Positions 678 through 47,300 of a stretch of DNA of 60,036 nt are shown piece by piece; position 1 is the stretch's first letter; every line of letters begins with the position of its first letter. The position numbers were made by a program, and so were the translations under genes. The stretch comes from Chloroflexota bacterium (GTDB lineage: Bacteria > Chloroflexota > Anaerolineae > Anaerolineales > Villigracilaceae). Below the pieces are notes generated by a model. That model saw only the letters and a program-made list of their open reading frames with translations. It was not told the origin of the DNA and ran no database searches. The DNA is taken from contig JAKAKJ010000018.1 of assembly GCA_021824575.1 (NCBI GenBank), forward strand, positions 1 to 60,036. The letters run 5' to 3'.

Positions 678-1079
678 ATGAAAGTCATTCCTGAATCGCA
701 TCGAGATTTGTTGAAGGATGAAAACAAAGCATTCGTCTATCTTGCGACCGTTAATTCCAACGGCACGCCGCAAGTCACGCCTGTCTGGTTTGATATGGAC
801 GGCGACTACATTCGCATCAACACAGCAACCGGTCGCTTGAAAGACAAAAACATGCGCGCCCGTCCCAATGTGGCACTTTGCATCGCCGATCCAAAAAATC
901 CGTATCGTTATGTGCAAATCCGCGGCAGGATCGTCGAGTTCACAACCGATGGCGCGGAAGATCACATTGATACACTTAATTTCAAATATCATGGCAGCCG
1001 AAATTATCCGGGCCATAATCCCAAACAGCCGCGCGTGATCTATAAAATCGAACCGTTAAAAGTCGACGCGCACGGATGA
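678..1079 (+). CDS. PPOX-class (F420/flavin-binding) split-barrel protein
   Basis: A 133-aa protein of the pyridoxamine-5'-phosphate-oxidase-like split barrel fold, in the group that often binds F420 or FMN. Typical features are VYLATVNSNGTPQVTPVWF near the N-terminus, then RINTATGRLKDKNMRARPNVAL and the RGRIVEF strand. In F420-using bacteria these small proteins act as F420H2-dependent reductases or F420 carriers. The position in an F420 biosynthetic operon favours an F420-linked role over PLP metabolism, but the substrate cannot be told from sequence. Its start is 1 nt after the preceding stop and its TGA overlaps the next ATG (1076-1079). Confidence 0.8.
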   Translation: MKVIPESHRDLLKDENKAFVYLATVNSNGTPQVTPVWFDMDGDYIRINTATGRLKDKNMRARPNVALCIADPKNPYRYVQIRGRIVEFTTDGAEDHIDTLNFKYHGSRNYPGHNPKQPRVIYKIEPLKVDAHG

Positions 1080-1663
1080 ATTCAGCGCACGAATTCCTGC
1101 GTTCGCGGCGCTCAACCCGCCGCTTCAGGCCGGACCCGATACCGGATTCCGTTATCGAGCGCATCCTCACCACTGCGACGTACGCGCCATCCGCCCACAA
1201 CCTCCAGCCGTGGAGATTTGTTATTGTAAAAAATCCGGATTCCAAATCGCGTCTTGGAATCGCGCTGACAACAAAAATGCGCGTTGACATGCAAGCCGAA
1301 GGCGCGCCCGAATCCGAAACCGAAAAGCGTGTTGCCAATTCCTTGCGCCGCATTGACGAAGCGCCTGTGATCATTCTTCTGTGCCGCGATGTGACCGTCG
1401 TCCGCACGGACACACCGGAAGAAACAATCATGAACATCCAGTCCACCGCGCTGGCCGGATTGCAACTTCTGCTGGCGGCACACGCCGAGGGTCTCGGCGG
1501 CAATTGGATTTGCTGGCCGTTGTATGCAACAAAAGAAACGCAAACAACTTTAGGGTTGCCGGAAAGTTGGGAACCGCAAGCGCTGGTTTTTGTTGGATAC
1601 GCTGATGAAGAACCGAAACAGAAAGAATTAAAGTCCCTGAATATAGTTTCAATCGTTATATGA
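1076..1663 (+). CDS. Stand-alone nitroreductase, probable dehydro-F420-0 reductase
   Basis: A 195-aa nitroreductase-fold flavoprotein beginning with the FMN-phosphate-binding SRR-type motif (RSRRSTRRF) and the [12 protein letters not shown] motif, and ending with [10 protein letters not shown] and the LGLPE/VGYADE tail. The closest functional model is the C-terminal domain of actinobacterial FbiB, which reduces dehydro-F420-0 to F420-0; stand-alone versions of this reductase are described in the related Thermomicrobia. Its location between cofE and cofD, overlapping both neighbours by ATGA, fits that role. It would act if CofC/FbiD uses phosphoenolpyruvate rather than 2-phospholactate. A generic nitroreductase is the alternative. 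Confidence 0.75.
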
Positions 1664-2589
1664 AAATCGTTGCTCTCGCCGGCGGAGTCGGCGGTGCAAA
1701 ACTCGCACACGGACTCGCCCAAACCCTCCCACCCGAAGACCTGACCATCATCGTCAACACAGGCGATGACTTTGAACATCTCGGCTTATATATTTCTCCC
1801 GATCTCGATACGGTCTGTTACACATTGGCGGGTCTCGCGAATCCAGACACGGGCTGGGGGCGAGTCAATGAAACATGGCAGGCAATATCGAATATTGAAA
1901 AACTTGGCGGGCAATCATGGTTTCATCTCGGCGACCAGGATTTGGCAACGCATCTCGAGCGCACGCGGCGGCTCAAGGAAGGTCAATGCCTTTCAGAGAT
2001 TACGCGCGACTTTTGCAAAGCGTGGGGGATTCATCATGCCGTAATCCCGATGAGCGATAATCCAATTAGGACCATCGTGAATACTGATGAAGGCGAGCTG
2101 GCGTTTCAGGAATATTTTGTCCATCGAAGATGTGAGCCGCGCGTCAAAGGCTTTCGATTTGACGGAGCCGATAAAGCGCAGCCCACGCCCGGCGTACGTG
2201 AAGCGATTCGATCGGCAGACGCAATCGTCATCTGCCCGTCGAATCCGTGGGTGAGCATCGCGCCTATTTTGGCGGTGCCCGGCCTAAGGTCAAAGATTGA
2301 AGCGAAACCCATTGCGGCAGTATCCCCAATCATCGGCGGGCAGGCAGTCAAAGGTCCAGCTGCAAAAATGTATCGCGAACTTGGAATCGAACCATCTGCG
2401 TTGGCTGTTGCAAAACAATACAATGGACTCGTCTCACATTTCGTGATGGATCACATTGATTCACAACTCGAGTCAGATATTCGGAGTTTAAATATGCAAA
2501 CATTGATCATCAACACACTGATGAAGACACCGGACGACCGGCGACAATTAGCCGAAGATGTGCTAAACTTCATTGGAACAAACCGATGA
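1660..2589 (+). CDS. cofD: 2-phospho-L-lactate transferase CofD (FbiA)
   Basis: The 309-aa protein transfers the phospholactyl or phosphoenolpyruvyl group from the guanosine-linked donor to the deazaflavin Fo, giving F420-0 or dehydro-F420-0. It opens with the Rossmann-like [13 protein letters not shown] loop and has the conserved [20 protein letters not shown] segment, which contains metal- and Fo-binding residues, and later [13 protein letters not shown] and [13 protein letters not shown]. Full length for the family. The ATG at 1660 overlaps the nitroreductase stop, and the stop overlaps cofC's ATG (2586-2589). No Fo synthase gene (cofG/cofH) is seen in the window, so Fo must be made from elsewhere in the genome. 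Confidence 0.93.
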
Positions 2590-3197
2590 CGCTCTGGGCA
2601 ATCGTCCCTGTAAAACCTTTGCGGCGCGGAAAGTCGCGACTCGCTGGCACGTTATCTGAAGATGAACGGGCGGAACTGAATCGCATATTACTTGAACACA
2701 CCATTCAAACACTCACCGATCTCAGGGAAATCGAACAGGTGCTGGTTGTCAGCCGCGACTCGTCAGCGCTGGCGCTCGCACGGGACCTGGGGGCGCGTAC
2801 TGTTCAAGAAGACGGCGCGCCAACTTTGAACACCGCGCTCAAACGCGCAACTGTTGTCGCCCAAGTCTATGCTTCACGCGGCGTTCTGATCGTCCCCGCC
2901 GATTTGCCGCTGCTCAAGCGCGAAGATGTCACCACACTGCTGGAGCGTTCGGCAAATCCGCCAGTGGTTGTCATCGCGCCTGACCGCCATCAAAAAGGGA
3001 CGAATGCTTTGCTCCTTTCGCCCGCCGATATCATCGAATACGATTTTGGCGAAGGCTCGTTCGAACGTCATTGTGACCGCGCAAAGAAAGCGGGCGCACG
3101 CCTTGAAGTCGTCAACCTGCCCTCGCTTGAACTCGACTTGGACCTGCCTGAAGATTTGGAATTGATCAGAAAGATGGAAGCACTAAAAGCCAAATAG
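2586..3197 (+). CDS. cofC: 2-phospholactate/phosphoenolpyruvate guanylyltransferase CofC (FbiD)
   Basis: A 203-aa nucleotidyltransferase that activates 2-phospho-L-lactate or phosphoenolpyruvate with GTP for CofD, releasing pyrophosphate. Diagnostic parts are the N-terminal VPVKPLRRGKSRLAGTL, the central PADLPLL metal-binding loop, and HQKGTNALLL followed by FGEGSFERH near residues 140-160. The presence of a dehydro-F420-0 reductase gene in the same operon suggests phosphoenolpyruvate as substrate, as in mycobacterial FbiD, but this is inference. It is the last gene of the operon; no clear intrinsic terminator follows in the 200-bp gap. Confidence 0.9.
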   Translation: MTLWAIVPVKPLRRGKSRLAGTLSEDERAELNRILLEHTIQTLTDLREIEQVLVVSRDSSALALARDLGARTVQEDGAPTLNTALKRATVVAQVYASRGVLIVPADLPLLKREDVTTLLERSANPPVVVIAPDRHQKGTNALLLSPADIIEYDFGEGSFERHCDRAKKAGARLEVVNLPSLELDLDLPEDLELIRKMEALKAK

Positions 3198-3268
3198 AGA
3201 ATTGATCTTTTGAAGAATCGGCAGCTCTCCACCACGCAAGAAAGCAAGCATGTCTAGGGGAGTTGCTT

Positions 3269-3385
3269 TTATTTAAGCAGTGACATATCGCCTTTGGGGA
3301 ATGGAGTTTCTACACTCGGTTTAAATCCACGAAAGACATAAAATGGAATCGAGAATGCGGCATCAAAAATCAAAATATATCTTCG
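3269..3385 (-). pseudogene. Possible C-terminal remnant of a GNAT-like gene
   Basis: In the gap between cofC and the next gene the minus strand encodes an open stretch of about 38 codons ending in TAA (3269-3271). The peptide has protein-like composition and contains FYVFRGFKP and a final KGDMSLLK, resembling the FYxxxGF...M-L-K end of GNAT acetyltransferases. There is no start codon or ribosome site in the right place and it runs into the start region of the plus-strand gene, so if real it is a decayed tail. Length and similarity are too small to be sure. Confidence 0.25.
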
Positions 3386-3399
3386 ATTGAGGTGTGAAA

Positions 3400-5898
3400 A
3401 TGAACGGCCTATCAGATCCACTTATCATGACCAAACGCCAACTCCAGACGGAGTTAATGCGCTGCGAATACTGCGAGGAGAAACCCTGCAAGGAAGCCTG
3501 TCCAGCGAATTGCTCGCCCTTCGACTTTATCATGGCGGCCCGCGTCGGAAACAAATCCGACATTCAGCGCTCAGCGGCAGAGATCATGCACGCCAATCCG
3601 CTGGGAGGCGTGTGCGGAATGGTCTGCCCGGATACATTCTGCATGGCGGCGTGCAGCCGCAAAAACTTCGACGGCTCGATCAATATTCCAAAAGTTCAAG
3701 CTACCCTCGTTGAAATGGCAAAGCAGGATGGCGGCATTCCAAAATTTTCAACTCCACCTTTGAACGGCAAGAAGGTTGCGGTCATCGGCGGCGGACCAGC
3801 AGGACTTGGAGCCGCAGCGGCACTGGCGCAAATGGGCTACGAAGCCGATATTTACGAGAGTCGGAATCAACTGGGTGGAATGTTGAATTTGATTCCGGAT
3901 CATCGTCTAGATAAAAAAGTCGTCGAGTCGGATATCGATTTCCTTCTTTCGCTCGGTGCGGTCAATGCAAAGACAAATACAAAGATTGAAGATCCAAAAC
4001 AGTTATTGAAACAAGGTTACGACGCGGTTTGCGTCACGGCTGGTTTATGGAAGCCGATTGAGCTTGGCATCGAGAACGAAAATCTTGCCATCAAAATGGT
4101 TGACCTGCTCTCCAATCCTGATGGATTCCAATTCAACGGACGCGTGGCTGTTATCGGCGGCGGAGCCACAGCCGCGGATTGCGCCATCACGGCAAAACAA
4201 CGCGGCGCGAAGCATGTCGAATTGTTCATGCTCGAAAAACTTTCCGAAATGCCGTTGACCGCGAAAGAGCGCCAGGAATTGATTGACTTTGATATTGAAG
4301 TCAACGGGCGCGTCCGCGTGACCCGCATCAAGAAAACCGGAAACAATGTTTCAGGAATCGACACATTGAAGGTTCAATTGCCCGAGGGCCAAACGTTTAG
4401 CCCCGCGAATATCCGCGATCTGAATGGCACGGAAGGCTCGCGCGATGACTTCGATGCAGTCGTTGTTGCCATTGGAATGCGCTCCACTTTGCCGCGCGAT
4501 CCGATCGAAGGAGTCTTCTACGCGGGCGATATGATGACCGGTCCAAAGACTGTTGTTCAGGCTGTTGCATCCGGCAAGAATATCGCGCTCGAAATTGACG
4601 CTTACTTGCAGCAACAACCGAAACCAATCATTGAAAAATCAACCAAATCCTATTATGCGCTTCCCGGATACAACCCTGTACCTGTTTCACTCGCAACCGA
4701 TTTCTTTGGACGACAAATTCGTTCGCCGTACTTGCTGTCCGCTTCGCCGATGACGGATGGATTGAATCAAATGCAAAGGGCGTATGAAGCGGGCTGGGCG
4801 GGCGCAATCATGAAGACCGCGTTCGATAACGTTCCGATTCACATCCCTGCTGAATATATGTTCACGTTCAGTCAATCCACGTATGCAAACGCAGATAATG
4901 TGTCGGGACATCCGCTGGATCGCGTGTGTCGCGAAATCAAGGAGCTTATAAAGAAATACCCGGATCGTTTAACGATGGCTTCCACGGGCGGACCGGTTAC
5001 GGGTCACGATGAGAGCGACAAAGCCGGATGGCAATCCAACACCAAAAAGCTGGAAGCCGCTGGCGCGATGGGAATCGAATACTCATTGTCGTGTCCGCAA
5101 GGCGGCGATGGAACGGAGGGCGATATCGTTTCGCAAAACGCGGCGCTCACTGCCAAGATCATTGACTGGATCATGGAAGTCGGCGATCCAAATATTCCCA
5201 AGCTTTTCAAACTGACGGCCGCGGTTACATCCATCATTCCAATTCTTCGCGCGATCAAACAAGTCTTTGCAAAATATCCAAATAAAAAAGCCGGTGTCAC
5301 ACTGGCGAACTCATTCCCAACGCTTGGATTCAGAACTGGTTCATTGGATCGCGCTTGGGAAGAAGGCGTAATCGTCGGCATGAGCGGCGAAGGCGTCACA
5401 CCGATTTCCAATTTGACTCTTGCCAACGCCGTACCAGAAGGCATAGAGATTTCCGGCAACGGCGGGCCGATGAATTACAAAGCCGCGATGGATTTTCTCG
5501 CGCTCGGCGTAAAAACCGTTCAGTTCTGCACAATGCCAACAAAATATGGATATGGCATTATCAATGAACTCGAATCAGGCACCGCATTTCTCATGCAAGA
5601 GCGCGGCATTAAATCCATGCATGAATTGATTGGGATTGCTCAACCGCATCCGGTCACGGGCTTCATGGAACTCTCGCCGATCAAAAAACTTTCAACCTTC
5701 AACTATGATCTCTGTGTCTCATGCGGAGATTGCGCGCGTTGTCCATATTTGGCGATCACACTGGACGAAAAGCGGCTGCCACATTCTGATCCAGCGCTGT
5801 GCATCGGATGTTCACTCTGCGCACAGAAATGTCTTACAGGCGCAATCACGATGCGCGAGCGGACTCCGCAGGAACTGGCGATGCTTCGAGAAAATTAA
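3400..5898 (+). CDS. Dihydropyrimidine-dehydrogenase-type fused FeS flavoprotein
   Basis: An 832-aa enzyme with the domain order of eukaryotic dihydropyrimidine dehydrogenase: Cys-rich N-terminal [4Fe-4S] domain (CEYCEEKPCKEACP, then GGVCGMVCP...CMAAC), FAD/NAD(P)H domain (VAVIGGGPAGLGAA, VAVIGGGATAADCA), FMN TIM barrel, and a C-terminal ferredoxin pair. I start at ATG 3400 because GAGGTG lies 5 nt upstream; a GTG at 3394 is inside that site. In the barrel the SLSCPQGG loop is present, but the place of the catalytic Cys of DPD-type enzymes is taken by Ser (about residue 578, before QNAAL). The first C-terminal cluster motif is CVSCGDCARCP, with spacing Cx2Cx2Cx2CP. It sits directly before ssnA, as ygfK does in E. 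coli. The substrate is uncertain. Confidence 0.8.
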   Translation: MNGLSDPLIMTKRQLQTELMRCEYCEEKPCKEACPANCSPFDFIMAARVGNKSDIQRSAAEIMHANPLGGVCGMVCPDTFCMAACSRKNFDGSINIPKVQATLVEMAKQDGGIPKFSTPPLNGKKVAVIGGGPAGLGAAAALAQMGYEADIYESRNQLGGMLNLIPDHRLDKKVVESDIDFLLSLGAVNAKTNTKIEDPKQLLKQGYDAVCVTAGLWKPIELGIENENLAIKMVDLLSNPDGFQFNGRVAVIGGGATAADCAITAKQRGAKHVELFMLEKLSEMPLTAKERQELIDFDIEVNGRVRVTRIKKTGNNVSGIDTLKVQLPEGQTFSPANIRDLNGTEGSRDDFDAVVVAIGMRSTLPRDPIEGVFYAGDMMTGPKTVVQAVASGKNIALEIDAYLQQQPKPIIEKSTKSYYALPGYNPVPVSLATDFFGRQIRSPYLLSASPMTDGLNQMQRAYEAGWAGAIMKTAFDNVPIHIPAEYMFTFSQSTYANADNVSGHPLDRVCREIKELIKKYPDRLTMASTGGPVTGHDESDKAGWQSNTKKLEAAGAMGIEYSLSCPQGGDGTEGDIVSQNAALTAKIIDWIMEVGDPNIPKLFKLTAAVTSIIPILRAIKQVFAKYPNKKAGVTLANSFPTLGFRTGSLDRAWEEGVIVGMSGEGVTPISNLTLANAVPEGIEISGNGGPMNYKAAMDFLALGVKTVQFCTMPTKYGYGIINELESGTAFLMQERGIKSMHELIGIAQPHPVTGFMELSPIKKLSTFNYDLCVSCGDCARCPYLAITLDEKRLPHSDPALCIGCSLCAQKCLTGAITMRERTPQELAMLREN

Positions 5899-5936
5899 AT
5901 CATCACACGCTCAACCAAAGGAAAGGATGAAACAAT

Positions 5937-7256
5937 ATGACAACACGATTTGAAAATGGGATTGTTGCAACACTCGGAAAAGATAACAAGGTTTTATTGA
6001 ATGGCTCGGTGGTCACAGATGGCGAGAAAGTTGTCGCGGTGGGCAATTCAACCGAGATGAAGAAACGCTATCCAAACGCCGAAGCTCTTGATTGCAATGG
6101 AAAAGTAATCATGCCGGGATTTATCTGCACGCATCATCATTTCTATTCCACGATGGCGCGTGGCATGGCAATTCCCGGCGAACCAGCCTCCAACTTTGTA
6201 GAAATTCTTGAGCGGCTGTGGTGGAAGCTGGACATGGCGCTCTCGGACGAAGATATTACACTTTCAGCGCAAATTCCGCTGATCGAGTGTATCCGCAATG
6301 GGACGACAACCGTCATTGACCACCACGCCTCGCCGTCCATGCGCGATGGTTCATTGGATTTGATCGAAAACGCCGTTCGCCAAGCCGGGCTTCGCGCCTC
6401 GCTCTGCTATGAAGTTTCTGACCGCAATGTCCCCGGCGGCGGCATAAAAGAGAATGAACGCTTCATCAAGAAGGTCGGCAAAGGTGACGGTCAAATCGCG
6501 GCGATGATGGGACTCCACGCATCATTCACATTGTCGGACGACACGCTGGAGAAATGTGTCGGCATTGCCAAAGATGCCGGAGTCGGCTGCCATATCCATG
6601 TCGCGGAAGACGCGGCCGACCGCGATGACTCAATCAAAAAATATGGAATGCCAACTGTAAATCGGCTGAACAAGATGGGCGCATCGGGCGAGAAATCCTT
6701 ATTCGTACATTGCGTTCACATTGACGACTCCGAGATGGACATCATCGCTGCCACAAAAACCGCCGTTGTCCATAACCCCGAATCAAATATGAACAATGCG
6801 GTTGGAGTCACGCGCGTTCTTGATTTGCTGAAAAAGAATGTCCTCGTCGGTCTGGGCACGGATGGCATGTCGTCCGATATGCTGGCGCAAATGCGCGCGG
6901 CGTATTTATTGCACCGTCTTGCCAACCATGATCCACGCGTGGCGTTTGTCGAAGCGCCGCAAATGCTTTTGCAAAACAACGCCAAAATTTGCGAACGGCA
7001 ATTTGGTTTGAAGTTGGGCGAAATCGCAGAGGGCCGTCCTGCCGATCTTGCGATCATAGATTACCAGCCGCCTACGCCAATCAGCGACGCAAACTTCCTC
7101 GGGCATCTCATCTTCGGTCTGGTTGATGCCACCGTGGATACCACGGTTTGCAAAGGCAAGATTCTGATGAAGGATAAAAAGATTCTCGCCCTGGACGAAG
7201 AACGGATCGCTGCGCGCTCGCGTGAACTCGCGCCAAAAGTGTGGCAAAGACTTTAG
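5937..7256 (+). CDS. ssnA: SsnA-type amidohydrolase
   Basis: A 439-aa metal-dependent amidohydrolase/aminohydrolase of the SsnA group. The metal-site motifs are in order: HHHFYST near residue 67, HIHVAEDA around 222, FVHCVH around 261 and GTDGMSSD around 307, with an N-terminal composite beta domain (VMPGF) and a C-terminal PADLAIID strand. A ribosome site AAAGGA precedes the ATG by 9 nt, and only 38 nt separate it from the flavoprotein gene, so the two form an operon closed by the terminator at 7286. In E. coli ssnA lies between ygfK and the xdhD-type molybdenum hydroxylase genes; here those hydroxylase genes are at 30-38 kb. It probably deaminates or ring-opens a purine-like heterocycle; the exact substrate is unknown. 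Confidence 0.8.
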   Translation: MTTRFENGIVATLGKDNKVLLNGSVVTDGEKVVAVGNSTEMKKRYPNAEALDCNGKVIMPGFICTHHHFYSTMARGMAIPGEPASNFVEILERLWWKLDMALSDEDITLSAQIPLIECIRNGTTTVIDHHASPSMRDGSLDLIENAVRQAGLRASLCYEVSDRNVPGGGIKENERFIKKVGKGDGQIAAMMGLHASFTLSDDTLEKCVGIAKDAGVGCHIHVAEDAADRDDSIKKYGMPTVNRLNKMGASGEKSLFVHCVHIDDSEMDIIAATKTAVVHNPESNMNNAVGVTRVLDLLKKNVLVGLGTDGMSSDMLAQMRAAYLLHRLANHDPRVAFVEAPQMLLQNNAKICERQFGLKLGEIAEGRPADLAIIDYQPPTPISDANFLGHLIFGLVDATVDTTVCKGKILMKDKKILALDEERIAARSRELAPKVWQRL

Positions 7257-7285
7257 TACTTGACAAGCAACAATCTCCTATTAGA

Positions 7286-7322
7286 AAACCATCCCCGAAT
7301 AACCGGGGATGGTTTATTTTGT
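7286..7322 (+). terminator. Intrinsic terminator after ssnA
   Basis: A perfect 12-bp inverted repeat AAACCATCCCCG / CGGGGATGGTTT (7286-7297 and 7304-7315) with a 6-nt loop, followed by ATTTTGTT. It ends the flavoprotein-ssnA operon and faces the minus-strand small gene at 7348-7572. Confidence 0.85.
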
Positions 7323-7347
7323 TGAGATGCGAAAATACATAAAATGC

Positions 7348-7572
7348 TTATCCAACAGCAGGAATCGCTTGTCTTGTTTTGCTTTTCGCGAGAATTTCAT
7401 CCAGCCGAGGATGTTTGCACAGGAAACAGTATCCGAACGGCAAAGCATATTGGCAAAGATTTGGCCCGGACATTTGACACTCCGCAAAGCCAGAAATTCC
7501 AATATCGGCAACACGGCAATTTTCCATGTCGGGCAAAGGCCGGGTTTCTTTATTGGTTTTTATTTTCGTCAT
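7348..7572 (-). CDS. Small Cys-rich protein of unknown function
   Basis: A 74-aa protein. The start is well supported: AAGGAG lies 7 nt before the ATG at 7572, and a promoter-like pair lies further upstream. The central part carries five to six cysteines in a compact arrangement (ENCRVADIGI, AECQMSGPNLCQYA, FGYCFLCKHP), which suggests a metal-binding knuckle or a structural disulfide fold. The C-terminal end is basic. No signal peptide or membrane segment is seen, so it is probably cytoplasmic. I do not recognise the family. Confidence 0.6.
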   Translation of the reverse strand: MTKIKTNKETRPLPDMENCRVADIGISGFAECQMSGPNLCQYALPFGYCFLCKHPRLDEILAKSKTRQAIPAVG

Positions 7573-7607
7573 GGCAGCACTCCTTGCAGTAAAGCATTTT
7601 CAAAACC

Positions 7608-7637
7608 AGTATATAACTTTCAAATCCACCTTTGCAA
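7608..7637 (-). promoter_or_regulatory. Putative sigma-70-type promoter of the small Cys-rich gene
   Basis: On the minus strand TTGCAA (7632-7637) and TATACT (7608-7613) are separated by 18 nt, and lie about 35 nt upstream of the start codon at 7572. Confidence 0.4.
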
Positions 7638-7813
7638 TTGACTATTCTCCTTATCCACGAAGACAATGCTCCTCGCAATTTCAGTCCGATAGACAAAAAT
7701 GTTGCCAACCAAACTCTCAGGTATAATGACAAATCATACCCACATAGCACAACTTCTTCATTCTGATCGCAAACTCAACTTTTGTTACTTCGCCAAATGG
7801 AGGAACATAAACA

Positions 7814-8809
7814 GTGGAAAGAGTAGCTTTGTATCTGCAGGACTCGCATGATTTGAGGGATGGACTCGAGTACGCCAAATATGCAGAAGATCACGGATTT
7901 GAAGCGGTATGGCAGGCGGAATCGCGGCTCGTGCGCGACGCGATTGTCCCGATGGCCGCCTACGCGGCGGTCACGCAGCGAATCAAAGTCGGCTCGGGTG
8001 TGATCAACAACTGGACGCGCAACATCGGTCTGCTCGCCGCCACCTTCCTGACGTTGGACGATCTCGCGCCGAATCGAATCATCTGTGGAATCGGCGCGTG
8101 GTGGGATCCGTTGGCAAGCAACGTCGGCATCAAACGTCACAAAGCCACTTTGGCGATGCGCGAAACGGTCGAAGTGATGCGCCGCCTGTTGAATATGGAG
8201 CGCGTCACATTTCATGGAGAATTCCACAACGTGGAAGGAATCGAGCTGGACGTCGTCCACGGACGCCGCGAGCCACGCCACATCCCGATTATGATCGGCG
8301 CCACCGGCGATCAGATGATGGAACTGACCGGCGAAATCGCAGACGGCGTCGTCATGAATTATTGCGTCCCGCCCGAATACAATGACAAGGCACTGGAATT
8401 GCTCGAAAAAGGGTTGAAAAGATCAGGCCGCAGGTTGGAGGATTTTGACCGTCCGCAATTGATTGTCTGTTCCGTTGACCCCGATCACGATAAAGCCATC
8501 GAATATACAAAAGAATTATTGTGTCAATATTTAGCGCAGCAACCCCACATTGCAAAAGCATCCGGCGTCTCTCAGGATGTGATCGCTGAAATTCAATCCA
8601 CTCTTGGCTGGCCCGCGACAAAGGAACAGATCAACAAAGCCAAACATCTCGTGCCGGATGATCTGGTGTACCGCATCACCGCATCCGGGACGCCAACCGA
8701 GGCGCGCGCTAAAGTGGAAGAATACAAAAAGCGCGGATGTACCTGTCCGATCCTTTACCCCGTCGGCGGGAATTTCAAATTATTGATTGACACATTCGCA
8801 CAAAGCTAA
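7814..8809 (+). CDS. LLM-class F420-dependent oxidoreductase
   Basis: A 331-aa luciferase-like (beta/alpha)8 protein of the F420-dependent group (methylene-H4MPT reductase-like). Supporting segments are [15 protein letters not shown], an early [13 protein letters not shown] strand, [15 protein letters not shown], and the [24 protein letters not shown] loop, which in this superfamily contributes to cofactor binding. The start is GTG 7814 with GGAGG 10 nt upstream. It probably transfers hydride between F420H2 and an organic substrate; the substrate is not predictable. A TATAAT at 7722 may be its promoter, but the -35 box is poorly placed. It is monocistronic and converges with the glucosylglycerate operon. 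Confidence 0.85.
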
Positions 8810-8869: not shown

Positions 8870-10684
8870 CTAAAGATTCAAAACTCTTTCCCGGTATTCC
8901 TGCAACTCGATCATCGCCGGGCGTTCAAGCTCGGCGATTTCTTCCACGTCGAGAAAGAGCCGTCCCTGTTCATAGCGAATCAATTTCAGCGATTTGTTCA
9001 CATCTTCCAGCATGTTCATCCCATAGCGTTTTTCGATTCTGCGGACAATCGTCTGGATGATCGCGAACGACATCTTGCTCAAAGATTCGAGCGGTTGATT
9101 GTGGTGAACCCGTTCCTGGAGATCAACCTGGGCGATAGCGCTTAGGCCAAATTTCTCGAATACATCAATAAGCAATCCAGTCTCAACGCCATAGCCAGAT
9201 GAAAATTGCAGCTGTTCGAGCGCGGAACGTCGTCCGCCGTATTCGCCTGACAACGGCTGGATCAAGCCGGAAAGTTCGGGGAAGAATAGGTTCAGCAAGG
9301 GCCGCGCTGTCAATTCGGTAACGCGCCCGCCTCCGCCCGCCTGAAGCTTGTTGTCCACTTTTAAAGGGCGGCGATAAAAACCCTTCACGAACTGAATCTC
9401 AGGATGCAGAATGAGCGGCCCGAGTAATCCATATACAAAACGCGGATGAACGTTGACGATATCCGTATCAATCCAGACGAGGATATCGCCGCGCGTCAGG
9501 TAGAGACTCTTCCACAACGCCTCGCCTTTTCCGGTTCGGGGCCCGAGAACAGGCAGAACCTGTTGATGGATGTAAACCGGCACATCCAGTTCCGCGGCAA
9601 TTTCCCGCGTGCGATCGCTTGAATCCGAATCAACGAGAATCATCTCGTCCACCAAATCAACCCGGCCCATCAGCGCCTGCTTGATGGTTTTGATCACCTG
9701 CCCCACCGTTTCTTCCTCGTCCAAAGCGGGGAGCGCCAAGCTGATTGTTAGATTCTGTTTCCGTTTCGATTCCAGCAAAAGATCAAGATCGGCAAATTCG
9801 CCAGCATGGTATGTATTCTCGGCGAACCACTTATCCACTAAAACGGAAATCGCATTGCGGCCCACAACTTCGCTGTCCATGTTGGATGGCAGCGGCCGGC
9901 GGGATTTCACGATCAGCACACCTTTGGAACTCTCGCGCAAGATTGCATCTGCAACGGGGCCAATTGAAATCAAAGAATCTTTCGGGCGGGCGGTCGCGCC
10001 CAAAACTACAAGATCGCTTTCTTTTGACGTCTCGAGAATGGCTTGCACCGGGTCATTTGTGTGAATCTGCATCCGCTTGACCTCCGGCAGGTTTTTCAAC
10101 ACTCGTTCCATCCCTTTGAAAGCCGGGTCCATTGGATGCTCGCCGGCGGCAGGCAATATATGCAAAGCGGTCAGCCGGGAATGACTTACGCTCGAAATGG
10201 AAAGTCCCAATCGAAGCGAAAGTTCAGCATAAGGTCCGCCGCGCAGCGATACCAGCACATGTGCGGGAGATTCGGAAATTTGCCCGCTGGCAATGACCAT
10301 ATCACACGGAGGAAAACGCAGCGCCTCGCCAAGTGTGATCTTCAATCCATCAAAGAATGATGGCTGTAGAATCACAAGGTCCGGTTCTTCTTCCAGGACG
10401 ATACGAATAAGCTCCTCCCACGGCTCATGCGAAACGTGGATGCGCTGTAAAGCATCCACGCCCCTTTTTGCGGCGGTCTCACGCAAAAGTTTACGCAGAT
10501 GCCGCGCCGGCACCGCGGCCTTGCTCAGCGACTCATCGCTGGATATGCCAACGATTCCAACAAGTAGAACACAGGATTCGTCCGCGATGTTCAATGCCGC
10601 CTGAAGCGCGGAATCATAACTCGAACCATAAACGATTGGCACGAGGATTTTGCGGAACAAACTTGCCGAGTAACGACTTTTCAT
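8870..10684 (-). CDS. gpgS: Universal-stress-domain / glucosyl-3-phosphoglycerate synthase fusion
   Basis: A 604-aa protein with two parts. Residues ~10-262 look like two successive universal-stress-protein domains; the second has VVLGATARPKDSL and ends in GVLIVK. Residues ~310-604 are a GT81-type glucosyl-3-phosphoglycerate synthase: PALDEEETVG (~319), DSDSSDRT (~352), GKGEALWKS (~385) and the metal-binding DTD (~406). The catalytic part transfers glucose from an NDP-glucose to 3-phosphoglycerate, the first step to glucosylglycerate. Ordinary GpgS is about 320 aa, so the N-terminal half is extra. The ATG follows the GT4 stop after 1 nt, with AAAGGG as ribosome site. The USP part may bind ATP or another nucleotide and gate activity; this is inference. 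Confidence 0.85.
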   Translation of the reverse strand: MKSRYSASLFRKILVPIVYGSSYDSALQAALNIADESCVLLVGIVGISSDESLSKAAVPARHLRKLLRETAAKRGVDALQRIHVSHEPWEELIRIVLEEEPDLVILQPSFFDGLKITLGEALRFPPCDMVIASGQISESPAHVLVSLRGGPYAELSLRLGLSISSVSHSRLTALHILPAAGEHPMDPAFKGMERVLKNLPEVKRMQIHTNDPVQAILETSKESDLVVLGATARPKDSLISIGPVADAILRESSKGVLIVKSRRPLPSNMDSEVVGRNAISVLVDKWFAENTYHAGEFADLDLLLESKRKQNLTISLALPALDEEETVGQVIKTIKQALMGRVDLVDEMILVDSDSSDRTREIAAELDVPVYIHQQVLPVLGPRTGKGEALWKSLYLTRGDILVWIDTDIVNVHPRFVYGLLGPLILHPEIQFVKGFYRRPLKVDNKLQAGGGGRVTELTARPLLNLFFPELSGLIQPLSGEYGGRRSALEQLQFSSGYGVETGLLIDVFEKFGLSAIAQVDLQERVHHNQPLESLSKMSFAIIQTIVRRIEKRYGMNMLEDVNKSLKLIRYEQGRLFLDVEEIAELERPAMIELQEYRERVLNL

Positions 10685-35339: not shown

Positions 35340-38339
35340 ATGAATCTCCAATTGAAAATCAATTCTGTCTTGCATGAAATCGAAGCTGCGCCTGGCGAAA
35401 CTCTTTTTTCCGTCATCCGCCGACTCGGTTACTATGGAATCAAATTTGGCGACGAAAGTGGTTTAACCGGAGCCGACACCGTTTTGCTCGACGGCAAACC
35501 GGTCAACGCGGGATCGCTGCTGGCCGCACAAGCTGAAGGTCATAACATTGTCACGATTGAAGCGCTCGGCGAACATCCCGACCAGGGTTGGAAGAAAACC
35601 GAGGGCTTGCATCCGCTTCAACAAGCTTTCGTTGAATCAGGCGCGATCCAATGCGGATATTGCACGCCCGCGCAAATCCTCGCCGCGAAAACGTTACTCG
35701 ACAAAAATCCGAATCCAACTGAAGAGGAAGTTCGCGAAGCGATCTCTGGCGTGTTGTGTCGTTGCACAGGATATCTAAAACCTGTTCAGGCAGTTTTGCG
35801 CGCGGCAGCCATTATGCGCGGCGACGAACCCGTCAACTGGGATTCGGTTAATTGGGATTTTGGGAATCCGCCAGAATCAAATCCTGAAACTTCGGAATCG
35901 CCAAGCGATCAATTTGCTAACATCTTGACCAAGCCAAAGGTTGTTGTCACGCCGCAGACGCAAGCGTGGAACGTTGTCGGCAAACCCGAAAAGAAGGTGG
36001 ATGCTGTCAAACTTGTCCAAGGCAAACCGGCTTTCACGGCAGACATCGAAAAGCGCGCCATGTTGGTTGCAAAAGTTTTGCACAGCCCATATGCACACGC
36101 ACGCATCAAAAAGATTGACACGAGCAAAGCCAAAGCATTGCCCGGTGTTGCCGCCGTGCTGACATGGCAGGATATCCCGCGCGTCGTTTGGTCCACCGCC
36201 GGGCAGTCGGATCCGATACCAGGGCCGCTTGACACATTCTCGCTGGATAACAAAGTGCGCTTCGTTGGCGACCGCGTGGCATTCGTCGCGGCGGAAACGG
36301 TGGAGATCGCTGAAAAAGCGCTAAGCCTGATCGAGGTCGAGTATGAACCGTTGCCCGCGATTCTGGATTCATCCGAGGCGATGAAGCCGGGCGCGATACG
36401 AATCCATGACGAGCCGGAATATGTCAACTTTGCGGATTCAGATCCAAGCCGGAACCTCGCCGCCAAAATCCGCATTGACATCGGCAACGTTGAAAAAGGA
36501 TTCAAAGCCGCGGATCAAATTTTCGAAGCTGAATACGAAGTGCCGAAAGTCCAGCAGGTTTCGATCGAGCCGCATGTGGTTGTGACATATTGGGATGAAG
36601 ATGACCGGCTCGTGATTCGTACTTCGACGCAAGTTCCGTTCCACGTGCGACGCATGCTCGCACCCGTTTTGGATTTGCCCGTCAAACGAATCCGCGTCAT
36701 CAAACCGCGCATCGGCGGCGGCTTCGGCGGCAAGCAGGAGGTGCTGATCGAAGATGTTGCCGCTCATTTGACGATTGCCACCAAGCGGCCGGTGATTTAC
36801 GAATATACGCGCGAAGAAGAATTCATCGCAGCGCGCTCGCGGCATCCGATGAAGATCAAGATGAGAACCGGTGTAAGAAAAGATGGAACGATCACGGCCA
36901 ACGAAATGTATGCGTTGTCTGATACCGGCGCGTACGGCTGTCACGCGCTGACTGTCACAGGAAACACCGGGCACAAATCCATGGCTTTATACGTTGGCGA
37001 CGGCGAATATCGCAAATCGCCAAATATTCGTTTTTACGCCGATATTGTTTACACCAACACGCCTCCCGCGGGCGCGTTCCGCGGTTACGGCGTGCCGCAA
37101 GGTTATTGGCCCGTCGAGCGCCACATGGAAAAGATCGCGCGGGCGATGGGATTTGATCCGATTGAGTTCCGATTGAAGAACACGATTCACGCCGGTGAAT
37201 ATCATCCATTCTCGACCGCGTGGAATGAAGGCCGCGAACCGCGACCAGAGATCATTCACACGGTCGGCCTCGAGCAATGCGTGGCGCAGGGCAAGGCCGC
37301 GATTGGGTGGGATGATAAATACGGAAATGAGAAATGGCATTCTTTCCTCCCGTCTTCTTTCGATGAAAAGAAAGAGGAAAAGATGAAAGAAGAACGATAC
37401 CGAAAAGGCATCGGCGTCGCGCTTGTCATGCAAGGCACGGCGATTCCCTATTTGGATATGGGCGGCGCCTCGGTCAAGATGAACGACGACGGCTCGTTCA
37501 ATCTGCAAGTCGGTGCGACGGATTTGGGCACCGGGTCGGACACGGTCATCGCACAGATGGTGGCGGAAGTACTCGGCGTTCCGCTCGACGACATCATCAC
37601 ATACTCGTCCGACACAGACTTCACGCCGTTCGATAAAGGCGCATACGCATCCTCAACAACTTACATCTCCGGCGCAGCGGCGGTCAAAGCCGCCGAGATG
37701 GCCGCGGAACGAATCAAAATCCGCGCGGCAAAGATGCTGGGCGAAAGCGACCATTCCAAGATTCGATTATTCGATAAACAGGCACATGCGCCAAATGGAA
37801 AATCTGTATCGCTTGCTGAAATTGCCTTGGATACTTTGCATCGCAACGATCAGGAACAGATCACGGGCGTTGGCTCATACGTATCACCGTCATCGCCGCC
37901 GCCATTTGCCGCGCAATTTGCCGAAGTCACCGTGGATTCGGAGACTGGAGTAGTCACGGTTGATAAACTTGTCATGGCCGTTGACTCGGGCGTGATCGTG
38001 AATCCGTTGACTGCATCTGGTCAAATCGAAGGCGGCATGACTCAGGCTTTGGGGTATGCGGTCTGCGAGGAAATGCGCTACGATGAAAAAGGCAGCGCCA
38101 TCGAACGCGACCTCGATCATTATCACATCTTCCGCGCGGACGAGATGCCCGAACTTGAAACCATCTTTGTGGAAACGTTCGAGCCGAGTCATCCATTCGG
38201 AGTCAAAGCCGTAGCGGAAATCCCGATGGACGGCGTCGCGCCCGCGGTTGGGAATGCTGTTCTGGATGCTGTTGGAGTGAACATTGACGACAATCCAATC
38301 ACGCCTGAAAAAGTTTGGAAGGCCCTGAAAGCGAAATAA
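35340..38339 (+). CDS. Fused FeS-molybdopterin hydroxylase, XdhD-like, with one FeS cluster lost
   Basis: A 999-aa xanthine-dehydrogenase-family protein: N-terminal ferredoxin-type domain (~1-80), helical [2Fe-2S] domain (~85-165) and molybdopterin domains (~210-999). The helical cluster is intact (C105, C108 in QCGYC; C140, C142 in LCRC). In the ferredoxin domain, which aligns without gaps, all four ligands are gone: D38, T43, D46 and G58 stand where Cys is normal. The Mo part has RIGGGFGGKQEVL (~457), GAFRGYG and the catalytic Glu960 in AVAEIPMDG. AGGAG precedes the ATG. Fusion of FeS and Mo parts plus the degenerate first domain recall E. coli XdhD. It probably hydroxylates a purine-like ring with electrons passing to the FAD subunit. 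Confidence 0.85.
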   Translation: MNLQLKINSVLHEIEAAPGETLFSVIRRLGYYGIKFGDESGLTGADTVLLDGKPVNAGSLLAAQAEGHNIVTIEALGEHPDQGWKKTEGLHPLQQAFVESGAIQCGYCTPAQILAAKTLLDKNPNPTEEEVREAISGVLCRCTGYLKPVQAVLRAAAIMRGDEPVNWDSVNWDFGNPPESNPETSESPSDQFANILTKPKVVVTPQTQAWNVVGKPEKKVDAVKLVQGKPAFTADIEKRAMLVAKVLHSPYAHARIKKIDTSKAKALPGVAAVLTWQDIPRVVWSTAGQSDPIPGPLDTFSLDNKVRFVGDRVAFVAAETVEIAEKALSLIEVEYEPLPAILDSSEAMKPGAIRIHDEPEYVNFADSDPSRNLAAKIRIDIGNVEKGFKAADQIFEAEYEVPKVQQVSIEPHVVVTYWDEDDRLVIRTSTQVPFHVRRMLAPVLDLPVKRIRVIKPRIGGGFGGKQEVLIEDVAAHLTIATKRPVIYEYTREEEFIAARSRHPMKIKMRTGVRKDGTITANEMYALSDTGAYGCHALTVTGNTGHKSMALYVGDGEYRKSPNIRFYADIVYTNTPPAGAFRGYGVPQGYWPVERHMEKIARAMGFDPIEFRLKNTIHAGEYHPFSTAWNEGREPRPEIIHTVGLEQCVAQGKAAIGWDDKYGNEKWHSFLPSSFDEKKEEKMKEERYRKGIGVALVMQGTAIPYLDMGGASVKMNDDGSFNLQVGATDLGTGSDTVIAQMVAEVLGVPLDDIITYSSDTDFTPFDKGAYASSTTYISGAAAVKAAEMAAERIKIRAAKMLGESDHSKIRLFDKQAHAPNGKSVSLAEIALDTLHRNDQEQITGVGSYVSPSSPPPFAAQFAEVTVDSETGVVTVDKLVMAVDSGVIVNPLTASGQIEGGMTQALGYAVCEEMRYDEKGSAIERDLDHYHIFRADEMPELETIFVETFEPSHPFGVKAVAEIPMDGVAPAVGNAVLDAVGVNIDDNPITPEKVWKALKAK

Positions 38340-41719: not shown

Positions 41720-42511
41720 ATGGACGCAATCTATCAGGCATTGGCTGAAATCGAAAAGAATAATGACAGCGCCGCGCTATGCACCGTTGTAAAAAGTGAA
41801 GGCTCGACGCCGCGGCATGTGGGCAGCAAGATGCTTGTTTATCCCGACGGAAAATTCATCGGCACCGTTGGCGGCGGCGACCTTGAGCATCGCGTTATGG
41901 ATGAAGCAAGGACGGCAATCTCTGAAGGCAAACCGCGCCTTCTTCATTACAACATGTCAGATCCGTCACGCGGCGACCCCGGCGTATGCGGCGGTCAGGT
42001 GGAGGTGTTTGTGGAACCAATTCTTCCGGCCCCGTCAGTCGTTGTCGTCGGTGCGGGGCACGTTGGCAAAGCAGTCGCTCATCTCGCGAAATGGCTCGGA
42101 TTCAGCGTCGCCGTCAGCGATGACAGAGTCGAATTCTGCAATCCACAAACCGTCCCGGACGCCGACGCGTATTACCCTGTCGCGATGGAAGAACTACCCA
42201 GCCAATTCAAGGTCAACAGGCGAACGTTCTTTGTTCTGACCACGCGCGGCTCATCCGTTGACGCGGTGGGACTCGGCCCATTGCTCGATTCGCCCGCGGC
42301 GTACATCGGCGTGATCGGGTCAAAACGCCGTTGGGCAACCACGGTCAAGGAACTGAAAGCCCGCGGCGTGCCCGAGGAAAAAATCGCCCGCGTTCACTCA
42401 CCGATGGGACTCGAATTGCAGGCCGAAACGCCCGAGGAGATCGCGGTCAGCATCATGGCGGAAATCCTGATGATCCGCGACAAAGGCAGCGGGAAGCCGA
42501 TGAAAGGATAA
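41720..42511 (+). CDS. xdhC: XdhC/CoxI-family molybdenum hydroxylase maturation protein
   Basis: A 263-aa protein with an N-terminal XdhC domain (GSTPRHVGSKMLV, GTVGGGDLEHRV near residues 30-60) and a Rossmann-fold C-terminal domain (VVVVGAGHVGKAVAHLAKW, ~107; YIGVIGSKRR, ~198; RVHSPMGLELQAETPEEIA at the end). Members bind molybdenum cofactor and help insert its sulfurated form into xanthine-dehydrogenase-type enzymes. The natural client is the hydroxylase at 35340-38339, 3.4 kb upstream. The promoter region carries TAAAAT at 41699. Confidence 0.88.
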   Translation: MDAIYQALAEIEKNNDSAALCTVVKSEGSTPRHVGSKMLVYPDGKFIGTVGGGDLEHRVMDEARTAISEGKPRLLHYNMSDPSRGDPGVCGGQVEVFVEPILPAPSVVVVGAGHVGKAVAHLAKWLGFSVAVSDDRVEFCNPQTVPDADAYYPVAMEELPSQFKVNRRTFFVLTTRGSSVDAVGLGPLLDSPAAYIGVIGSKRRWATTVKELKARGVPEEKIARVHSPMGLELQAETPEEIAVSIMAEILMIRDKGSGKPMKG

Positions 42512-45482: not shown

Positions 45483-47300
45483 TCAGTCCCACAAATCTTT
45501 TGCAACATCATCTAACCCAAGCGAAAGAAGTTTTTCTTTTGTTGGATAACCCGTTTTTTCATCCCAGCCGCGGGCATCGTAATACGCGTAGAGCATTCCT
45601 TGAATATCAGGCACATAGCCTTCCGTCCCGCCGGTTGACAACGGCTCAAGCAATGCCTTCGGCAATTTATCATTGGCGGCAGTCAGGCCCAGGCGATTGT
45701 TGATAGCGCGCTTGATGTTCCAGCCGCGCTCGCCGACTTTCATCATTTCGTCAATCGTCCAATCGTAGCCACAAGCGGCATTGACCAAATCAACCTGCGT
45801 CTGCGGTGCGATGTTTGCGAAGATGCACATTACCATCGAGTTGTAAACCGTCCGCCAGTTTTGATGACGGGCAACATTCGCGGCTTTGGCTCCATCGCCG
45901 TGACGCGGGAAATATTCGATGCCAATCTCCGGCGTGATGTGTCCCCAATCCACAAAGAAATAATCCGACTGGTTATGGCACGCGCCGCGCGGCGACGTGG
46001 CATACGAAAGCGCCATGCCTGAAACGCCGCGCGGATCATGATACGCGACTTCAAGTCCATTCACCTGCACGGCTTCTTCTTCCGCGCCAAAATGTTTTCC
46101 AAGCCGACGCGAACCTTGCGCGATCCATTCGCCGATGCCGTCGCGACGCGCAGTCATCCGCACCAACTGGCGGACAGCAACCGCATCGCCCCATTTGAGT
46201 TCCAAGCCGCCAGTATCCTTTGTGGTGATGATTCCTTTTTCGAAAAGATAAAACACCAGGCCAATCGTGTTGCCGGTGCTGATCGTGTCCATGCCGTAGC
46301 GATCACACAATTCACCAAGCCGCGTGATCTCAGCCAGATCGTCAATCAAAAGATTTGGGCCAAATGACACAACCGTTTCATATTCGGGACCTTTGCGCCG
46401 AGCGCCATCTTCAAGCCGGACGACGCGCCCGCAGGCGATGACGCAGGCATGACAGGCGCTTTGCCCGGCCAAAATTTTTTCCGTCATCATCGCGCCAGAG
46501 ATGCTATCAACCGATTCAAACCCGCCCTGGTGGTAATACTTGGCGGGCATCGCGCCGAGATATTCAGAATAATTCGCCGCGCCCGCCGTGCCCAATTCAT
46601 GCAGGACGCGCGATTCGTTATCCTGCTTCAACGTGCGATTTGATTCGGAGCGCAATCCGCTGTATCGTCCCGAATGAACGAGCGGCAGCGCCCGCTTACC
46701 ATGCACCGCAATCGCTTTGAGATTTTTCGAAGCCATCACCGCGCCGAGTCCAGTGCGACCTGCGGTGCGGCCATGATCACAATAAATACCTGCGAACAAG
46801 ACACCATTTTCCGCCGCGGGACCGACAACCGCGACGTGCGCGTTCGTGCGGCCAACTTCCTGCTTGACGATTTCCTGCGTCTCGTAAGTATCCCTGCCCC
46901 ACAAATGCGCCGCATCCCGGACCTCGAAGCGGCCATCCTGAATCCAAAGATAAACCGGCACTGACGCTTTTCCCGTGATCCACAAACCATCGTATCCCGC
47001 GAAGCGAAGTTCGGGCCCCCAAAAGCCTCCGCAGTTGGATTCAGCCCATAAACCGGTGGCCGGCCCCTTTCCGCAGACAACGAAGCGGCCAACCGTCGGG
47101 CCAGATGTTCCCGTCAGCGGGCCGTTCATGAAAAGCAATGGCGCACCTGCCGAAAATGGATCCAACTCTTTCGTCAGGTACGGATAAAGCAAGCGCGCCG
47201 CCAATGACGCGCCGCCAAGGAAAGCTCTTTCCAATTCCTCCGGAATTTTATATTCTTCCGTCTTGCCAGTTGTCAAATCAATTTTGAGAATGGGCTGCAT
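45483..47300 (-). CDS. Aldehyde ferredoxin oxidoreductase family protein
   Basis: A 605-aa tungsten/molybdenum bis-pterin oxidoreductase of the AOR family. The N-terminal domain has GGASLAARLLY and SGPTVGRFVVCGKGPATG; the single [4Fe-4S] cluster ligands are C283, C286, C290 (CHACVIACG) and C492 (VMCIFA), the family arrangement. A EYETVVSFGPNLLIDDL stretch and DTISTGNTIGL match pterin-binding regions. It oxidises aldehydes to acids with ferredoxin as acceptor, or the reverse. The substrate is not evident. It may share pterin cofactor supply with the molybdenum hydroxylase. Confidence 0.9.
   Translation of the reverse strand: MQPILKIDLTTGKTEEYKIPEELERAFLGGASLAARLLYPYLTKELDPFSAGAPLLFMNGPLTGTSGPTVGRFVVCGKGPATGLWAESNCGGFWGPELRFAGYDGLWITGKASVPVYLWIQDGRFEVRDAAHLWGRDTYETQEIVKQEVGRTNAHVAVVGPAAENGVLFAGIYCDHGRTAGRTGLGAVMASKNLKAIAVHGKRALPLVHSGRYSGLRSESNRTLKQDNESRVLHELGTAGAANYSEYLGAMPAKYYHQGGFESVDSISGAMMTEKILAGQSACHACVIACGRVVRLEDGARRKGPEYETVVSFGPNLLIDDLAEITRLGELCDRYGMDTISTGNTIGLVFYLFEKGIITTKDTGGLELKWGDAVAVRQLVRMTARRDGIGEWIAQGSRRLGKHFGAEEEAVQVNGLEVAYHDPRGVSGMALSYATSPRGACHNQSDYFFVDWGHITPEIGIEYFPRHGDGAKAANVARHQNWRTVYNSMVMCIFANIAPQTQVDLVNAACGYDWTIDEMMKVGERGWNIKRAINNRLGLTAANDKLPKALLEPLSTGGTEGYVPDIQGMLYAYYDARGWDEKTGYPTKEKLLSLGLDDVAKDLWD

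Follow-up and report, generated by a model that had tools for sequence, protein, structure and literature searches.

How can an enzyme of the xanthine oxidase family handle its electrons when one cluster of its relay is missing? The textbook electron chain of this family comprises a molybdenum (Mo) centre, two [2Fe-2S] clusters and flavin adenine dinucleotide (FAD), the distal cluster linking the proximal one to the FAD. The question is raised by an XdhD-like protein encoded in a stretch of 60,036 nucleotides from a Chloroflexota bacterium (assembly GCA_021824575.1, contig JAKAKJ010000018.1; this whole stretch is hereafter called the window), in which all four Cys ligands of the distal cluster are replaced. 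Ligand losses in XdhD-type proteins arose several separate times. We tentatively read the protein as an XdhD-type Mo enzyme, likely a urate reductase, whose FAD-to-Mo relay has become dispensable and is being lost piece by piece, a reading to which we give somewhat less than an even chance; this branch of the xanthine oxidase family may hence run without the usual electron relay.

The open reading frame (ORF; coordinates of all features in Table 1) specifies a single chain of 999 amino acids (aa) which joins an N-terminal [2Fe-2S] part to a molybdopterin part. Pfam cut-offs are passed by Fer2_2, Ald_Xan_dh_C, MoCoBD_1 and MoCoBD_2, and none of these four matches is a plant-type ferredoxin model. 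The top NCBIfam model is TIGR03313, the XdhD equivalog, with a score of 696.1 bits which lies below the curated cut-off of 1101.9; the XdhD-like identity proposed by the first-pass annotation of this stretch is supported. As expected for the xanthine oxidase family, the molybdopterin-binding domains and the a/b hammerhead are present (Pfam cut-offs passed; fold match), whereas only four of the eight Cys residues which bind the two [2Fe-2S] clusters are found. Alignment with eight-Cys relatives bears out the earlier claim that all four distal ligands are replaced (D38, T43, D46, G58) without a gap, and both the ORF and the alignment confirm that the second cluster site (C105, C108, C140, C142) is intact. 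These latter four are the only Cys residues within positions 1-200, so that the alignment reveals no displaced Cys ligand nearby. The distal loop aligns gap-free with that of eight-Cys relatives such as L106 (L-numbers are labels of fetched loci), while a second eight-Cys group (L108 and others) contains one residue more in this loop, which reads FGGC.

To place this protein among its relatives, we use a sample taken from genomes, 80 loci being kept of 210 confirmed ones and further genomes of the phylum and class being added; outside that phylum, the sample consists of E. coli and a plasmid collection only. The ligand alignment holds 182 fused proteins, of which 179 were scored, no state being assigned to L081 and L094 (split frame) or to L112 (cut). 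The scored rows include E. coli XdhD, a Cetobacterium protein, the paralogue L002 and E. coli XdhC+XdhA; proteins shorter than 880 aa, including those of loci cut at about 3.5 kb (L009-L038), stand outside the 179, their Fe-S domains having been read. For a ligand set to be scored as lost, no more than one of its Cys residues may remain. On this basis 76 proteins have lost the distal set alone (D0P4), 69 keep both sets (D4P4), 27 have lost both (D0P0; a few of these rows retain one proximal Cys) and seven have lost the proximal set alone (D4P0). The D4P4 rows comprise 68 proteins with all eight Cys and, assigned by hand, L220, in which seven are seen and the start is garbled. The frame of L220 is garbled near 6923, and those of L081 and L094 are split in two near 9000, in each case by a frameshift or an assembly error.

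In the D0P4 state the replacing residues are nearly fixed (D38 in 75/76, Ser or Thr at 43 in 75/76, D46 in 76/76, G58 in 73/76). Since these near-fixed replacements occur in loci from many separate genomes, neither chance nor sequencing error accounts for the distal loss. Displaced distal ligands were sought in all 76 proteins; as 56 of them contain no Cys within residues 1-100 and the other 20 a single one, there is no displaced ligand set in this state. By way of control, all 24 complete non-XdhD Fe-S proteins encoded in the fetched loci retain eight Cys (the rows L005 and L139 repeat rows of the 179; the cut row L115 is excluded), so that the repeated loss looks like a trait of XdhD-type proteins rather than of their genomes. 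A mirror image of the window case is seen in L125, L167-L169, L172, L173 and L179, whose distal ligands are intact and whose proximal ligands are all lost; in these proteins the cluster next to Mo is missing and the far one is kept.

How often these losses occurred was estimated from trees of the Mo domain only, so that the trait columns do not shape the trees. The tree of 109 rows, dereplicated at 80% (main FGDE group) or 90%, requires eight distal and six proximal changes, seven and six of which are forced by starred branches; loss-only counting yields the same numbers. The mixture-model tree of 48 rows gives nine distal and seven proximal changes (Fitch counts), its placement of the eight-Cys L138 among D0P0 rows raising these figures. 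Both trees were built by a quick procedure, so that their starred branches are less reliable, and the larger one carries a long-branch warning, as L002 and XdhC+XdhA stand beside the E. coli and Cetobacterium proteins; the smaller tree omits these two rows. Within the sample the nearest relative of E. coli XdhD is the eight-Cys Cetobacterium protein L221, with full support in both trees (100 in the Shimodaira-Hasegawa-like approximate likelihood ratio test, SH-aLRT) on long branches. A single loss shared by E. coli XdhD and the window clade is rejected by the approximately unbiased (AU) test (p 7.7e-6), as is one shared by the window clade and the other D0P4 clade represented by L204 and L191 (p 3.9e-52). 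Hence, the losses ran in parallel in several lineages, that of the window protein among them. In contrast, a clade uniting its D0 neighbours with L101 and L105 is not rejected (p 0.497), and because these two loci split off in the best trees the eight distal losses could be seven.

The order of events differs between lineages. Distal-only or distal-first loss is observed in the window clade, where L114 lost proximal ligands later, in L171/L175 and in the clade of L189-L191, L195, L196, L204, L206, L217 and L218. The proteins which lost only the proximal set, represented in the tree by three rows, form the sister group of a clade which has neither. The window protein had been regarded as an intermediate on the way to E. 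coli XdhD, for which ligands of both clusters were said to be missing. The latter statement proves correct, the E. coli residues being D,A,D,S at the distal and S,N,S,D at the proximal positions. The distal-less state does serve as a stepping stone inside its own clade, as shown by L114; a role of the window protein as an intermediate towards E. coli XdhD is not supported, the losses being parallel, the joint clade rejected and the proximal set alone being gone in one lineage.

The residues which take the place of Cys recur. One case is the convergent REPLACEMENTS: position 142, the last proximal ligand, is acidic in 34/34 proximal-less rows (Glu in 31, Asp in three). Conversion of a Cys codon to Asp takes at least two base changes and conversion to Glu three, and the same acidic outcome is reached across six separate losses. 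At the distal site the pattern D-[S/T]-D is met with repeatedly, namely in the window clade, in the L189-L218 group (L191 reads D-A-D), in L171/L175 and in L185/L187/L205; other lineages have S,T,A,D or S,D,S,V, and E. coli D-A-D. In D. gigas aldehyde oxidoreductase the Cys equivalent to position 142 contacts the pterin amino group, a contact for which no published statement was found in the accessible text of the literature searched; elsewhere the usual partner of the pterin is a carboxylate. Such a contact at position 142 would explain the Glu found there.

The gene shows signs of constraint. For the loop 34-62 the median ratio of non-synonymous to synonymous substitution (dN/dS) towards its near kin amounts to 0.068; the proximal domain has 0.053 and the Mo domain 0.064. 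These values are rough, dS being near saturation and 5 to 11 of 12 pairs usable per window of codons. In the AlphaFold2 model the distal domain is ordered, with a predicted local distance difference test score (pLDDT) of 84-94 for ten-residue blocks over residues 1-80, and the whole protein reaches a mean pLDDT of 85.1 and a predicted TM-score (pTM) of 0.87. The best structural match of this model is D. gigas aldehyde oxidoreductase (1sij; TM-score 0.79 by query length). In each of the four ligand states the motifs GGFGGKQ and AFRGYGVPQ, like the surroundings of the catalytic Glu, are largely conserved; D0P0 rows vary at the first two and the fifth position of GGFGGKQ. E630 aligns with E606 of E. 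coli XdhD, and Glu occupies this position in 174/179 rows, the alignment being gappy nearby. Since SsnA and uricolysis-type genes are encoded in the window, since reduction of urate to 2,8-dioxopurine (yanthine) with reduced nicotinamide adenine dinucleotide (NADH) is reported for E. coli XdhD-YgfM, and since E630 is the equivalent of E606, a Glu singled out in E. coli XdhD (both in the accessible part of PMC12507026), our best guess from sequence is that the window protein is probably an XdhD-like urate reductase, the purine reductase of anaerobic uric-acid breakdown.

The FAD subunit encoded in the window matches PF00941 above cut-off, yet lacks the canonical TD and NDT residues. Its model adopts the FAD-subunit fold, the block 31-40, which holds the first loop, being least ordered (mean pLDDT 54). 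The Asp of the SPAND (NDT) motif is present in 23/23 canonical subunits, in 8/37 from D4P4 loci, and in 0/39, 0/20 and 0/4 from D0P4, D0P0 and D4P0 loci, respectively; for the Asp of GGTD the corresponding counts are 23/23, 2/37, 1/39, 0/20 and 0/4. As the loops of these subunits align with gaps, single rows are unsure. Erosion of the FAD site even where all eight Cys are present fits a relay which loses importance from the flavin end inward; it does not by itself prove the absence of FAD. Within the flanks fetched of loci of at least 9 kb, to which all neighbour counts refer, phmmer detects no FAD subunit at 5/5 D4P0 and 14/24 D0P0 loci. A loss of the subunit along with the clusters was considered and dropped, as whole-genome searches found a YgfM-type gene elsewhere in 13/16 proximal-less genomes, far from the XdhD-type gene (exceptions G686, G623 and G630); these 13 genes score 129-189 with the YgfM-type profile, compared with 54 for E. 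coli XdhB. With our own criterion of a FAD_binding_5 match below 100 bits, a YgfM-type gene is present in 24/27 chosen genomes, the 16 proximal-less ones being part of these 27.

In the usual geometry the gap left by the distal cluster probably exceeds the distance over which electrons are usefully transferred. The first-pass annotation had concluded that the path to FAD must skip this cluster, which would imply a new route or a different partner. In outline this follows, the distal cluster being the usual bridge to FAD; a route without any relay is open as well, because the FAD subunits mostly lack the canonical residues and because cluster-less E. coli XdhD-YgfM is reported to be active. We favour the relay-free reading on account of the repeated losses, of proximal loss in six lineages and of the published E. 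coli activity: turnover with NADH despite the absence of ligands for either cluster suggests, as far as the accessible part of PMC12507026 goes, that the relay is dispensable. In XdhD-type enzymes Mo would accordingly be reduced without the FAD-distal-proximal chain, and the cycle would be closed at the Mo site, either by a further substrate in reduced form or by a donor which delivers two electrons directly in the same pocket. The empty distal domain would be kept as a folded scaffold, acidic and hydroxyl side chains filling the vacated site, and the proximal cluster might persist in the window protein mainly since C142 would touch the pterin as in the D. gigas structure. The full version of this scheme, in which XdhD-type proteins form a branch of the xanthine oxidase family working without any FAD-iron-sulfur relay, Mo is reset by a second substrate (e.g. 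in a purine-to-purine transhydroxylation) or a direct two-electron donor and the carboxylate replacing Cys142 takes over holding the pterin edge, is in our view possible but rather doubtful.

Several observations weigh against a dispensable relay. The FAD subunit gene is retained, and the canonical FAD Asp is still present in eight of the 37 subunits encoded at D4P4 loci. Among the scored rows of the window's own group the proximal Cys residues are absent from L114 only, which favours a working proximal cluster and hence some entry of electrons there. SsnA occurs in only 4/68 D0P4 flanks and, in the window, lies 28 kb from the XdhD-like gene. We know of no Chloroflexota enzyme with these losses that has been assayed. 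E. coli YgfM is described as a FAD-binding electron-transfer module in the accessible text of PMC12990295, a commentary on PMC12507026, and the assay text of the latter, its supplement aside, contains in its accessible part no word on a control without NADH or on the iron content of XdhD.

In a rival reading electrons would still use the proximal cluster and enter it from another donor, only the distal step being replaced; this donor could be a ferredoxin, a flavoprotein linked to F420H2 or NAD(P)H, or a FAD subunit docked closer. We take this for a serious competitor, if one that will more readily prove wrong than right. The proximal Cys residues, kept by the window's group except L114, and the retained FAD subunit gene speak for it, as do two candidate flavoproteins which the window encodes at 3394-5898 and 7814-8809. 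Against it, six lineages including E. coli also lost the proximal set, part of one of them retaining the distal set. Nor does any flank gene among 18 probe proteins track distal loss across lineages: a pyrophosphatase gene (51/68 D0P4 vs 8/58 D4P4 flanks) and Band7 genes (36 D0P4 vs 0 D4P4) follow the window's group and are not seen beside the second D0P4 clade.

The remaining explanations concern the protein itself. Repeated loss of redox ligands and eroded FAD-binding residues could mean that it binds no useful cofactor and acts as a pseudoenzyme or regulator; the mostly conserved Mo-site motifs, the XdhC-type gene kept nearby, the low dN/dS and the activity reported for the cluster-less E. 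coli relative (PMC12507026, accessible part) make this very unlikely. We consider it just as improbable that the D-[S/T]-D-G residues bind a different metal or an atypical cluster where the distal one used to be. Much the same set did arise in two lineages, the window clade and the L204/L191 clade, whose union is rejected, and by way of a Cys-to-Asp change which needs two base changes; however, G58 offers no side-chain ligand, the window loop contains no His, and other lineages have S,T,A,D or S,D,S,V. Least credible of all is neutral decay of an unused distal domain, as several independent losses might suggest, since constraint on the loop equals that on the Mo domain (dS being near saturation), its fold is predicted with high confidence and the replacements recur.

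Table 1. Features of the window discussed in the text (positions in the window; Cys and codon numbering of the XdhD-like protein).
Feature	Position	Strand	Basis
XdhD-like fused Fe-S/molybdopterin subunit, 999 aa	35340..38339	+	ORF, Pfam and NCBIfam matches
Distal (plant-ferredoxin-like) domain, residues 1-75, all four Cys ligands replaced	35340..35564	+	alignment
Former distal ligand codons: D38 35451-35453, T43 35466-35468, D46 35475-35477, G58 35511-35513	35451..35513	+	alignment with eight-Cys relatives
Proximal [2Fe-2S] ligands, intact: C105 35652, C108 35661, C140 35757, C142 35763	35652..35765	+	alignment
Molybdopterin domain with GGFGGKQ (460), AFRGYGVPQ (579), E630, VKAVAEIP (955)	35967..38336	+	Pfam, alignment
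XdhC/CoxI-type maturation factor	41720..42511	+	passes Pfam cut-offs; below NCBIfam cut-offs
YgfM-like FAD subunit, 245 aa, without canonical TD and NDT FAD residues	29947..30684	+	Pfam, alignment, model
SsnA amidohydrolase	5937..7256	+	532 bits, cut-off 455.5
GltD-like flavoprotein fused to PreA/dihydroorotate-dehydrogenase-like part; candidate pathway reductase	3394..5898	+	profile matches
Luciferase-like (LLM) oxidoreductase, nearest F420-dependent Mer models, below their cut-offs	7814..8809	+	profile matches
CofD, coenzyme F420 biosynthesis	1660..2589	+	above cut-off
CofC, coenzyme F420 biosynthesis	2586..3197	+	above cut-off

Turning to the surroundings, the linkage typical of XdhD-YgfM is found in the window in a loose form, the YgfM-type gene lying 5 kb from the XdhD-like gene. 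Given the low flank counts per state (apart from the D0P4 loci, SsnA is found at 16/58 D4P4, 3/24 D0P0 and 0/5 D4P0 loci) we call the SsnA linkage loose in general. It is tighter in 12/58 D4P4 loci, where the genes for SsnA, CofD, CofC, LLM oxidoreductase, FAD subunit, XdhD-like protein and XdhC lie within about 10-14 kb, and L105, whose distal set is lost, has the same gene set minus XdhC, its flank being cut there. Within 678-8809 the window encodes a group for F420 biosynthesis and uricolysis, consisting of an FbiB-like protein, CofD, CofC, the GltD-PreA fusion, SsnA and the LLM oxidoreductase. The fusion comprises 834 aa, a GltD/YgfK-like NAD(P)H flavoprotein being followed by the PreA/dihydroorotate-dehydrogenase-like part in what we take to be the domain order of dihydropyrimidine dehydrogenase. 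The window thereby holds two candidate purine reductases close together. According to the accessible part of PMC12507026, SsnA clusters of Chloroflexota are without YgfK/UacX and with a putative F420-dependent enzyme; the window contains both an enzyme of the F420-dependent type and, unlike this description, a YgfK-like fusion. In L131 a dihydroorotate-dehydrogenase-like gene (6802-7926) lies directly upstream of a cluster-less XdhD-type gene. Further genes of the window include that of an aldehyde ferredoxin oxidoreductase (AFOR; 45483-47300, minus strand) about 3 kb from the XdhC-type gene, and a compatible-solute group in which glucosyl-3-phosphoglycerate synthase is fused to a universal-stress-protein-like part (8870-10684, minus strand), with an MGH1-like glycoside hydrolase and a glycerate kinase nearby. 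No Rfam match in the window exceeds its gathering score.

The natural series of repeated distal, proximal and double ligand loss allows the role of each cluster to be addressed directly. The puzzle is sharper still for E. coli XdhD-YgfM, reported to reduce urate with NADH by means of an XdhD without ligands for either cluster, and the enzyme catalyses the opening step of a medically interesting uric-acid pathway of the gut. Neither the enzyme family nor the reported reaction is new; the distribution of ligand states, its repeated origin and the acidic residue at position 142 were not found in the literature searched, which lies outside supplements and most subscription papers; the accessible text of the same literature makes no mention of E. 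coli XdhD activity in relation to the missing cluster ligands. In the accessible main text of PMC12507026 "2Fe-2S" is absent and the "Fe-S" passage concerns YgfK, and the accessible XdhD passages of PMC2997495 and PMC3958847 do not mention missing ligands. RefSeq also labels E. coli XdhD an Fe-S binding subunit.

Among the closest known systems, E. coli XdhD-YgfM shares the fused Fe-S/Mo layout, a YgfM-type FAD subunit, the linkage to SsnA and E606 as equivalent of E630; at the distal site its D,A,D,S is similar to the D,T,D,G of the window protein. It differs in lacking the proximal ligands as well, and its losses do not group with those of the window clade. D. gigas aldehyde oxidoreductase (1sij) has the same fused fold, but carries both [2Fe-2S] clusters and no FAD domain (PMC10223205, accessible part). 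Xanthine dehydrogenase, as represented by E. coli XdhABC and by XDH-type proteins encoded in the same loci, shares the Mo-site motifs and the domain set and differs from the window protein in its eight Cys ligands and canonical FAD-binding residues. The eight-Cys XdhD-type proteins of Chloroflexota (L106-L111, L113, L115-L118) show 72-74% best-segment identity and similar neighbours; like Cetobacterium L221 they belong to the same family as the window protein, and in all of them both ligand sets are intact.

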